A stretch of 64,000 nt of DNA from Pedobacter indicus (lineage in GTDB: Bacteria; Bacteroidota; Bacteroidia; Sphingobacteriales; Sphingobacteriaceae), in contig NZ_QRGB01000001.1 in NCBI RefSeq assembly GCF_003449035.1, forward strand, positions 1,364,001 through 1,428,000, in the 5' to 3' direction. The notes beneath the pieces were generated by a model. The model made no database searches. It was not told the origin of the DNA and worked only from the letters and a program-made list of their open reading frames with translations. The number at the start of each line of letters is the position of its first letter. The first letter of the stretch is position 1. A program made the position numbers and the translations under genes. Below are positions 2,959 to 36,273 of this stretch, piece by piece.

Positions 2959-3081
2959 CTTGTTTAGGCTTGTCTCTTATTTAACCCGTAGTGCTCCCAG
3001 TATCAACTCGTACAAACCATCGGTTTTAACGGGTTGGCAACGGGAGCACTACGGGTTGACAACGGGTTCACCCTAAACAAG
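2959..3081. repeat. Nested long inverted repeat between convergent genes
   Basis: Outer arms CTTGTTTAGG (2959-2968) and CCTAAACAAG (3072-3081) enclose perfect 16-base inner arms (AACCCGTAGTGCTCCC at 2983-2998, GGGAGCACTACGGGTT at 3042-3057). The right half also contains two near-identical 16-base direct repeats (about 3030-3045 and 3051-3066, one mismatch). It fills the gap between the convergent sulfatase and nhaA genes. It could be a bidirectional transcription stop, a small mobile-element remnant or a structured RNA; there is no T tract beside the inner stem. Confidence 0.6.
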
Positions 3082-16805: not shown

Positions 16806-16848
16806 AACAACAAAAAGGGCTACCGAAACGGTAGCCCTTTTTGTTGTT
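16806..16848. terminator. Strong bidirectional terminator after rpsT
   Basis: Perfect 20-base arms (16806-16825 and 16829-16848, core GGGCTACCG/CGGTAGCCC) with a 3-base AAA loop and T-rich ends on both strands. Serves rpsT and the convergent DUF1080 gene. Confidence 0.95.
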
Positions 16849-20996: not shown

Positions 20997-21305
20997 ATGC
21001 CAACTGTTTCTGCACAACTAGATCGAATTGTTGATCGTTCTGCTAAGATGATTGACCTGTGTGTTACATTACAAGAAGAGAATGATTTATTAAAATTGGA
21101 AAATCAATCCTTACAGGTAGCGGTAGAAACTAGTACAGAAAAGATTAAGAGCCTAGAAGAAAAGGTAAAAGCACTCGGTGTTGCACGCACATTGGATGGA
21201 CTAAATGAGACGGCTGAATTATTAAATGAAAAAAATCTTGGCATAAAGCAAAAAATTGACGATTTTGTGCGTGAAATTGACAAGTGTATTTTGTTATTAA
21301 AATAA
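20997..21305 (+). CDS. Coiled-coil protein upstream of zapA, function unknown
   Basis: 102 residues, almost wholly helical. Heptad-like runs of Leu, Glu and Lys from about residue 20 to 60 (ENDLLKLENQSLQVAVE, EKIKSLEEKVKAL) predict a coiled coil, and a second helix follows (NEKNLGIKQKIDDFVREIDKCILLL). No signal peptide. It lies between pheT (11 bases) and zapA (33 bases) on one transcript, so a role in cell division is a fair guess; size and coiled-coil nature recall ZapB, the partner of ZapA in proteobacteria, but no sequence similarity can be claimed from reading alone. Confidence 0.75.
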   Translation: MPTVSAQLDRIVDRSAKMIDLCVTLQEENDLLKLENQSLQVAVETSTEKIKSLEEKVKALGVARTLDGLNETAELLNEKNLGIKQKIDDFVREIDKCILLLK

Positions 21306-21338: not shown

Positions 21339-21629
21339 ATGGGAGAGATTTCCATAAAAATAAATATAGCAGATCGGATATATCCTCTTCGTATTACAAC
21401 AGAAGAAGAAGAGATTATAAGAAGAGCTGCTAAGCTAATAAACGATCGCATCAAGGAGTTTCAGGAGAACTACGCGGTGCGTGACAAACAGGATTTGCTT
21501 TCGATGTGCGTGTTGCATTATGCAACTGCGTCATTGAAGGCTGAGGAGGCCTCTAAACACGAGGATAAAGATGTTGCGAAAAAGGTTCAGCAACTGGACG
21601 AAATCCTGGCAGATTTCTTTAGCGAATAA
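21339..21629 (+). CDS. zapA: Cell division protein ZapA
   Basis: 96 residues. ZapA binds FtsZ and helps bundle its filaments at the division ring. Seen: MGEISIKINIADRIYPLRITTEEEEIIRRAAKLIND with the short beta hairpin followed by the long helix (key part YPLRITTEEEEIIRRAAK), and a C-terminal coiled-coil helix. Length and layout fit ZapA. Followed on the same strand by a 6S-like RNA and rny. Confidence 0.9.
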   Translation: MGEISIKINIADRIYPLRITTEEEEIIRRAAKLINDRIKEFQENYAVRDKQDLLSMCVLHYATASLKAEEASKHEDKDVAKKVQQLDEILADFFSE

Positions 21630-21658
21630 CGTTCTTTAAAATAGAGCCATAAAAGTTT

Positions 21659-21829
21659 AGCCGCAGTTAAATGTAGGTTTTACTATTAAAAACTTAACGC
21701 TTCAATATTACATGCGTGAAAATGAGATGTATTCAATTTGACTCGTTCATCTAGAAATGATCAAAACGCAAATCCTGTAAATGAGAAGTTTTTAATACAT
21801 AAGACCTTAAATTTACTGTGGCTTTTTTT
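21659..21829 (+). ncRNA. ssrS: Candidate 6S RNA (6S-Flavo type)
   Basis: About 170 bases between zapA and rny fold into one long hairpin. The arms 21659-21695 and 21786-21823 pair almost throughout: AGCCGCAG with CTGTGGCT, AGGTTTTA with TAAGACCT (one G-U pair), and ATTAAAAACTT with AAGTTTTTAAT perfectly. Then comes an unpaired central bubble, then TTACA/TGTAA, TGCGT/ACGCA and AGATG/CATCT toward the terminal loop. The closing stem is followed by a run of seven T (21823-21829). This is the layout of 6S RNA, which binds the housekeeping RNA polymerase by imitating an open promoter. 6S RNA adjoins zapA in gammaproteobacteria, and a 6S-Flavo RNA family is described in Bacteroidota. Exact ends are inferred. 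Confidence 0.65.
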
Positions 21830-21855: not shown

Positions 21856-23409
21856 ATGGAAATAATACTATACATAATTTTAGGATTGATAATAGGGCTC
21901 GTGATAGGTCGTTACCTGCTGAGAAAGGTGTTTAGAAAGCAGGAAATAGCTGTTCAGAATAAAGCTAAAAAGATTTTGAAGGAAGCTGAGCAGGACGCTG
22001 AGCATTTGAAGAAGAATAGATTATTGGAGGCGAAGGAAAAGTATCTGCAACTAAAATCAGAGCATGAAAAGGAAATCAGCCAGCGTAATAATACGCTAAA
22101 TCAGCGTGAAAACAATTTGAGGCAGAAAGAGCAAAATGCTAACCAAAGATTGGAGAAAATAAACCGGGAAAGCCAGGAACTAGAAAATAAGCGAAAAAAT
22201 TTAGAGCGCTTGACTGAACTTAATGAGAAGCGGCAGGAAGAGGTTGAAACATTGAAAAATCAACAAATAAAACAATTGGAATCTATCGCTGGATTGTCTG
22301 CGGAAGATGCCAGAAATCAATTAGTTGATAATTTAAGGGAAGAGGCAAGGACAAAGGCTTTGAGCCAAATTAAAGACATTGTTGCCGAGGCAAAGTTGAC
22401 AGCAAGTAAAGAAGCAAAGAAAATTGTCATCCAGACGATTCAAAGACAGGCGAGCGAAAGTGCAATTGAAAATACGGTTTCTATTTTCCATATTGAAAGC
22501 GATGAAATTAAAGGTCGGATTATTGGTCGTGAAGGTCGGAATATTCGTGCTTTGGAGGCTGCTACCGGTATTGAGATTATCGTAGATGATACGCCTGAAG
22601 CCATTATCTTGTCAGGCTTTGACCCGGTTCGTAGAGAAATTGCCAGATTGGCTCTGCATAGATTGGTTACCGATGGACGTATACATCCGGCTCGTATAGA
22701 AGAAGTTGTAGCGAAGACTAAAAAGCAGATTGAAGAGGAAATTGTAGAGATAGGGGAAAGAACCGTAATTGATTTGGGAATTCACGGTTTACACCCTGAA
22801 CTGATCCGTATGGTGGGAAGGATGCGTTATCGTTCTTCTTATGGTCAAAATCTTTTGCAGCACTCTCGTGAAGTGGCTAATTTCTGTGCGACCATGGCTG
22901 CAGAGTTAGGTCTGAATGTAAAGCTTGCCAAACGAGCTGGGTTGTTACATGATATAGGTAAGGTGCCAGATGATAATCCTGATCTACCGCACGCATTACT
23001 TGGTATGCAACTGGCTGAAAAGTATAAAGAGCATCCGGAAGTTTGTAATGCAATTGGAGCACACCACGACGAGATTGAAATGACTTCATTGATTTCGCCA
23101 ATTATTCAGGCATGTGACTCGATATCGGGCGCTAGACCGGGTGCGCGGAGAGAAGTGGTTGAAAGTTATATTAAGCGATTGAAAGATTTGGAATCACTGG
23201 CTTTGTCATATCCGGGAGTAGAAAAAACGTTTGCGATTCAGGCGGGTAGAGAGCTAAGGGTAGTAGTGGAGAGTGAAAAAATATCGGATGCTCAATCAGA
23301 GATTCTAGCAGCTGATATTTCTAATAGAATTCAGACGGAAATGACGTACCCTGGACAGATTAAGGTTACTGTTATCCGGGAAACGCGCTCGGTGTCATTT
23401 GCTAAATAA
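21856..23409 (+). CDS. rny: Ribonuclease Y
   Basis: 517 residues: a membrane-anchored endoribonuclease that starts bulk mRNA decay. Domains in order: an N-terminal membrane helix (about 2-20), a long coiled coil (about 30-200) of Lys/Glu/Gln-rich heptads, a KH RNA-binding domain (about 208-270, [20 protein letters not shown]), and an HD domain with LLHDIGK near residue 365, the metal-binding catalytic motif. Length is standard. DUF962 follows after 2 bases. Confidence 0.97.
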
Positions 23410-36222: not shown

Positions 36223-36273
36223 TTTTATAAGAACGGCCTTGAGATTAAGATTCTTAAGGCCGTTCTTATAAAA
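36223..36273. terminator. Bidirectional terminator between convergent genes
   Basis: 18-base perfect arms (36223-36240 and 36256-36273, core AAGAACGGCCTT / AAGGCCGTTCTT) around a 15-base loop. It ends the basic secreted protein gene on one strand and the ilvA end of the amino acid operon on the other. Confidence 0.92.

Follow-up and report, generated by a model that had tools for sequence, protein, structure and literature searches.

The DNA analysed here, a stretch of 64,000 nucleotides of the Pedobacter indicus genome (the window), carries between zapA and rny a structured RNA that, judged from its sequence, is very probably the 6S RNA gene (ssrS) of Sphingobacteriaceae; we put the probability of this reading at roughly 0.88. 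A 6S-like RNA had been proposed at this place in a first-pass annotation, and the proposal gains support from covariation, from a shared zapA-rny locus and from covariance-model matches that run both ways but are incomplete. The kind of RNA is already known, and the link with a boxA-like site is the new part. Two covariance models were used: R1, based on 25 Sphingobacteriaceae rows, and R2, built from 17 loci of the 6S-Flavo family (RF01685) without Sphingobacteriaceae. The parts of the locus are as follows.

21339-21629, forward strand: zapA, the upstream neighbour (Pfam PF05164, E 4e-19)
21630-21638, forward strand: boxA-like element CGTTCTTTA, abutting the zapA stop, with [CT]GTTCTT[AT] conserved
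21653-21828, forward strand: 6S-type RNA, whole covariance-model match (R1 148.4 bits, with the window copy itself among the 25 rows of its seed; fold z -5.18; R2 match 21659-21822)
21659-21695, forward strand: closing stem, 5' arm, pairing with 21786-21823 (consensus helices 1-4, 90-97% of cells paired)
21696-21710, forward strand: 5' strand of the central bubble, AACGCTTCAATATTA, nearly invariant in the 25 rows and unpaired in the consensus, with a core common to 6S-Flavo loci
21711-21769, forward strand: apical stem, interrupted by internal loops and capped by a terminal hairpin (helices 5-7, in which the sequence varies, two-sided changes are frequent and 74-81% of cells are paired)
21770-21785, forward strand: 3' strand of the central bubble, unpaired in the consensus, with a CUAA..CUGU-like motif common to 6S-Flavo loci
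21786-21829, forward strand: closing stem, 3' arm, together with the T run, a terminator-like end (arm pairing; seven T at 21823-21829)
21856-23409, forward strand: rny (RNase Y), the downstream neighbour (NCBIfam TIGR03319, 668.5 bits, above cut-off; Pfam PF12072)

zapA runs to the end of its stop codon at 21629 and rny starts with its ATG at 21856, so that both the 226-base gap and the position of rny as the next gene, as first annotated, are borne out by the coordinates and by the Pfam and NCBIfam gene identities; against the NCBIfam zapA model, the zapA of the window scored under the cut-off of that model. The comparison with gammaproteobacteria, in which zapA is also the neighbour, likewise stands, as a zapA-ssrS link is reported for beta- and gammaproteobacteria in the accessible part of PMC7641849. 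Directly 5' of zapA lies an open reading frame of 102 amino acids (20997-21305, forward strand), coiled-coil-like by weak matches, among which is ZapB at 17.4 bits, below its cut-off of 31.5. If this gene were zapB-like, the order zapB-like, zapA, 6S would parallel by analogy the ZapB-ZapA-SsrS array of beta- and gammaproteobacteria, as far as it is described in that source.

The structural features that had been proposed were all recovered. The almost unbroken pairing of the two arms is seen as an inverted blastn match at 79% identity between 21659-21695 and 21786-21823, and as a nearly continuous duplex of -33.2 kcal/mol; the RNA ends in the T run (seven T, 21823-21829), and the central bubble and the apical hairpin region are both present in the consensus structure. 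At about 175 nt, the rod has the shape of the 6S class, in which a closing stem, a central bubble and an apical stem make up a total length of about 160-200 nt. A stretch of 178 nt folds at -44.5 kcal/mol against a mean of -27.6 in 200 dinucleotide shuffles (z -5.18), and none of the 200 was as good. Among 204 low-GC segments of 178 nt taken from both strands of the window, nine fold equally well or better, the best eight of them coming from two places at about 16.7-17.0 and 36.1-36.4 kb. The strength of the fold is not unique within the window, and comparative evidence was therefore needed. Other inverted repeats of the window include those at 16806-16848 (perfect, 20-nt) and 36223-36273 (95%, 22-nt), which lie in low-GC sequence and are perhaps terminators, and one at 2959-3081 with 60-nt arms, 73% complementary, and a 3-nt loop, at a place where the window scan gave its strongest local fold.

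The comparative evidence comes from Sphingobacteriaceae, in which the zapA protein was present in 196 of 201 genomes. Seventy loci were compared, 30 set out by the search and 40 chosen for the spread of genera among the places listed, a sample that leaves out genera g5, g8, g9, g11, g23 and g24. In all 70, rny comes after zapA, at a distance of 120-385 nt, and most of the zapA-rny gaps among those listed hold the same rod and T run. MAFFT/RNAalifold on 68 sequences, and again on 52, gave little consensus fold because of indels and of rows that had lost the core. The seed of R1 consists of 25 well-aligned rows picked by hand, the window copy included, with a consensus structure taken from averaged pair probabilities; it has 52 pairs, with 88.0% of cells paired. 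Two-sided change was found in 29 of the 52 pairs, against a shuffled mean of 18.6, with none of 500 shuffles as high, and the covariation score was 0.290 against 0.186 for shuffled and 0.05-0.13 for slid versions; the choice of rows by hand and the derivation of the structure from those same rows favour the structure, an effect that the slid and shuffled controls bound only partly. The expectation that the zapA-rny gaps of relatives would show conserved pairing with compensatory changes thus agrees with the data (29 of 52 pairs against 18.6 shuffled). In the 25 Sphingobacteriaceae rows hardly any change is seen in the unpaired bubble strand CUUAACGCUUCAAUAU, and few stretches of the RNA are as conserved in this alignment as the 5' strand of the bubble.

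When R1 was run on the 45 Sphingobacteriaceae loci outside its seed, 33 scored 75-159 bits, 11 scored 16-59 bits and L015 scored 9.2 bits (E 9.3), and a full copy was thus counted in 58 of the 70 sampled loci (the 25 in the model and the 33 with at least 75 bits). In a further set of named loci, the best 80 of 368 zapA loci, from genomes partly shared with the 70-locus sample, R1 matched in 76 at the cut used (E < 1e-7), always immediately behind zapA; the set includes Albibacterium, Daejeonella, Pedobacter, Mucilaginibacter, Hufsiella and Sphingobacterium. In the genome of the window R1 finds a single place, the RNA described here. Antisense strands of Sphingobacteriaceae loci also receive 10-41 bits from R1, because the rod is near-palindromic.

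The Rfam models did not recognise the RNA. At gathering thresholds cmscan of the window returned tRNA only, and in a permissive scan the zapA-rny gap matched eukaryotic families only, at chance level; searches of the own genome with RF01685 (6S-Flavo) and RF00013 (6S), run to E <= 10, came back without a match. The search with these two models that had been proposed as a check thus failed, a result that by itself speaks against the proposal: there was no match in the window, the own genome or the 20 Sphingobacteriaceae loci scanned, and the gathering scores of the curated families (85 bits for RF01685 and 46.4 bits for RF00013) were not reached. Across the Rfam scans of the window, the 20 Sphingobacteriaceae loci, 20 rny junctions and 11 R2 loci, no bacterial RNA family was found at the Sphingobacteriaceae zapA-rny place; elsewhere the same scans gave weak RF00013 or RF01685 matches (L139, L183) and some small RNA or eukaryotic families at chance level. 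Taken with the locus, the covariation and the model evidence, the missing Rfam match suggests an effect of sequence divergence. The 108-position 6S-Flavo model of Rfam does not reach the RNA of the window, and it is by locus and by cross-matching of R1 and R2 that the RNA is related to recognised 6S RNAs.

The locus is shared widely. Over 198 genomes of the phylum, RF01685 gave 21 matches, nine of them above the gathering score, and 20 of the 21 lie between zapA and rny by tblastn, the exception being the weakest, L100. RF00013 gave 24 matches at E <= 0.001 over 198 genomes, one of them above the gathering score, and all 24 are directly upstream of rny on the same strand. A ZapA-like open reading frame precedes all 24 by eye, and Pfam ZapA was found in ten out of ten tested, whereas a zapA profile built on Sphingobacteriaceae recognised only three of the 24 loci. 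The recognisable 6S RNAs of the phylum mostly share the slot of the window RNA, and adjacency to 6S loci is not in itself proof of function.

The RNA is like 6S-Flavo (RF01685; Weinberg et al. 2010, PMC2864571, in the part available) in its zapA-rny locus, shared by 20 of 21 matches, and further in the order of closing stem, bubble, apical stem and T run, in bubble strands that can be aligned, and in model matches both ways. It differs in the sequence of the closing stem, and the bubble-side stem is of the AAGCUU/AAACUU type as against the AAACUC type. The likeness to 6S/SsrS (RF00013) lies in deeper branches of the phylum, where the matches stand before rny and after a ZapA-like open reading frame; the sequence has diverged, and RF00013 has no match in the own genome. 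With proteobacterial ssrS the RNA shares the link to zapA, while the genes downstream there are FAU1/YgfA or EVE genes, according to the accessible part of PMC7641849. The 6S RNA of Bacteroides thetaiotaomicron, described with pRNAs (PMC7366714, in part), belongs to the same phylum and was compared without its locus or sequence.

R1 matches 19 of the 21 RF01685 loci over the full length and on the sense strand only, at 29-42 bits (L090 and L100 were missed), and in L080-L099 the RNA is free of overlapping R1 matches on the antisense strand. Two other stretches, one of 50 nt in G349, outside its RF01685 locus, and one of 36 nt in G145, also score with R1 (36.4 and 30.1 bits respectively) and are presumably terminator hairpins; as short stretches reach comparable scores, the matches of 29-42 bits count only through their length, strand and place. 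With stricter filters over the 198 genomes, R1 missed the RF01685 loci and returned short hairpin-like matches instead. R2, for its part, shows two-sided change in 21 of 37 pairs against 8.3 shuffled. Its best match in the 64-kb window is the RNA itself (21659-21822, 23.0 bits, E 0.005), followed by a hairpin-like match of 38 nt (E 0.034), and in the whole own genome R2 finds nothing at E <= 0.1. Of the 69 other Sphingobacteriaceae loci, 42 gave an R2 match at E <= 10, 17 of them at E < 0.01, and the remaining 27 gave none; the top match reached 51.3 bits (E 7.6e-9). Among 12 loci of the RF00013 type (11 of the 24, and L139), R1 matched three over the 6S RNA on the right strand at 20-24 bits and missed nine. 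The homology to recognised 6S RNAs is thus seen in the locus and in two-way model matches that are weak and partial, and for the RF00013 type in three of 12 loci only.

It might be argued from the weak and partial R1/R2 cross-matches, and from the lack of an Rfam 6S match, that some other trans-acting structured RNA, not 6S in function, has taken over the slot. This is very improbable, since the bubble sequence, the order of stems and the locus are common to the 6S-Flavo and canonical 6S matches, and since full-length matches on the sense strand were obtained with models built from either side.

Another possible explanation would be that the RNA acts in cis, as a leader or attenuator of rny, its structure and T run setting the amount of RNase Y, perhaps through cleavage by RNase Y of the leader of its own message. 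A precedent for a leader of this sort is RNase E, which cuts the leader of its own mRNA. The rny ATG comes 26 nt after the end of the T run, and rny follows in every one of the 70 Sphingobacteriaceae loci. In addition, R1 gives less than 65 bits in 12 of the 70 (L015, L040, L041, L042, L049, L055, L056, L066, L069, L070, L071 and L075), and in most of these, judged by eye, the conserved core has disappeared or changed strongly, with closing stem and T run still in place. No convincing R1 copy was found elsewhere in the genomes of the 12 weak loci (G006 has a match of 18 bits over 39 nt elsewhere), and the remnant at these loci may be a terminator or an attenuator of rny. As the main role of the RNA the cis reading is nevertheless improbable, as the bubble is conserved to the same degree as the terminator end, and as proteobacterial 6S RNA sits after zapA with other genes downstream (PMC7641849, in the accessible part). 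Moreover, of 13 rny loci from the Bacteroidia families f2 and f5-f9, nine are zapA-rny junctions whose short spacer R1 does not match, and the remaining four have no zapA close by. Two genomes combine an RNA-less junction with an R2-matching copy elsewhere (L178 in G248, 54.0 bits; L100 in G236, 43.7 bits), and neither zapA nor rny was found within flanks of about 1.5 kb of these copies.

R2 was also run on 40 genomes of the class and matched in 12, with zapA and rny flanking seven matches (one of which, L176, is the locus already counted as L099), zapA alone beside one, and neither gene beside four, of which L187, at least, resembles a simple hairpin. L178, L100 and L182 are R2-matched 6S-like RNAs away from both zapA and rny. 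These matches suggest that the 6S-like RNA has been relocated in some families of Bacteroidia, and the RNA seems to be separable from rny. That RNase Y might process the RNA, as proposed earlier, is speculation.

The second part of the finding concerns the boxA-like site at the end of zapA. Within the first 30 nt after zapA, [CT]GTTCTT[AT] (boxA-like CGTTCTTT) is present in 61 of the 70 Sphingobacteriaceae gaps, while 0.25% of 30-nt stretches taken from the window contain it. In the own genome AACGTTCTTTGACAT stands in the 16S-23S spacer, and AACGTTCTTT is common to the zapA 3' site and to the spacer of the same genome. By its position and sequence we take the spacer site AACGTTCTTTGACAT to be boxA, which is expected in a 16S-23S spacer. 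The rrn boxA, to which NusB-S10 binds and which has a part in rrn antitermination (PMC10931766, in part), is similar in that CGTTCTTT after zapA recurs in the spacer as AACGTTCTTT, and different in that the site of the window precedes a 6S-type RNA and not rRNA.

A looser form of the motif lies not more than 150 nt upstream in seven of eight zapA-linked R2 loci, in one of nine RNA-less junctions and in none of five unlinked loci. Among the 21 RF01685 loci, 14 have GTTCTT, three have GTTCAT (L085, L086, L090) and one has GCTCTT (L095), and none of these forms was found in L098 and L099 (family f3) or in the relocated L100. Near the zapA end of the RF00013 loci GTTCTT was found in L140 only (1 of 24), and the motif is therefore not phylum-wide. 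In Sphingobacteriaceae absence of the motif accompanies decay of the 6S core: it is missing from six of the 12 weak loci against three of the 58 others (Fisher p 0.0005, with loci taken as independent of kinship). Ten loci (L035, L036, L038, L064, L065, L068, L069, L070, L072 and L073) carry insertions in front of the RNA, behind the boxA-like site, that differ from lineage to lineage and reach about 80 nt. A fixed promoter combining CGTTCTTT with a TAAGAT-like box was considered and rejected, since its spacing from the RNA is not constant (28-40 nt in 50 of 60 cases measured, with a maximum of 113), and a scan of the own genome for this promoter pattern gave no match, the pattern being too strict to fit the window itself.

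The boxA-like site suggests rRNA-style antitermination across the 6S stretch. More broadly, it can be proposed that the 6S RNA of Bacteroidia is made in the way of rRNA: boxA at the zapA stop would load an antitermination complex onto the polymerase leaving zapA, 6S would escape Rho, and zapA-boxA-6S-rny would be an old operon of the phylum. We hold this proposal tentatively, at a little short of even chances.

The 6S reading leads to the following mechanism. The RNA would be transcribed together with zapA or just after it, and NusB-S10, recruited by the boxA-like site behind the zapA stop, would keep the polymerase from being stopped by Rho while it crosses the untranslated stretch; most transcripts would end at the closing stem and T run, and readthrough would reach rny. 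In the finished RNA the closing stem would act as the downstream duplex and the bubble would mimic an open promoter, and under low nutrients the RNA would trap RNA polymerase carrying the housekeeping sigma factor. On outgrowth the polymerase would copy the 5' strand of the bubble (CUUAACGCUU) into a short pRNA, which would lead to release, and the pRNA is predicted to begin near 5'-AAGCGUUAAGUUUUUAAUAG, antisense to about 21680-21706. We infer the template start region of the pRNA to be the 5' bubble strand at 21696-21710, a conserved strand that is assigned as template because of the geometry known for E. coli 6S RNA. Binding of sigma-RNA polymerase by 6S RNA and its release by pRNA synthesis are described in PMC11077062; within Bacteroidetes, evidence from dRNA-seq for pRNAs of a Bacteroides 6S RNA is given in PMC7366714, and PMC9723704 lists a 6S RNA of Flavobacterium psychrophilum, each as far as the accessible part of the source goes. 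No 6S RNA of Sphingobacteriaceae, zapA-6S-rny unit or boxA before 6S was described in the paper listings and passages searched, and an earlier description, for instance in the survey of Wehner et al. 2014 (PMC4615782), is possible.

With this finding, a large family passed over by the Rfam models gains a likely 6S RNA, together with R1 and R2 as working covariance models, and zapA-rny becomes a conserved address for 6S RNA searches in a large part of the phylum. Lineages in which the core has gone and much of the stem has stayed are natural experiments on the loss of 6S RNA. The boxA-like site makes the escape of 6S from Rho testable, and, if the proposal is true, the zapA-boxA-6S-rny operon would tie together cell division, polymerase sequestration and RNA decay.
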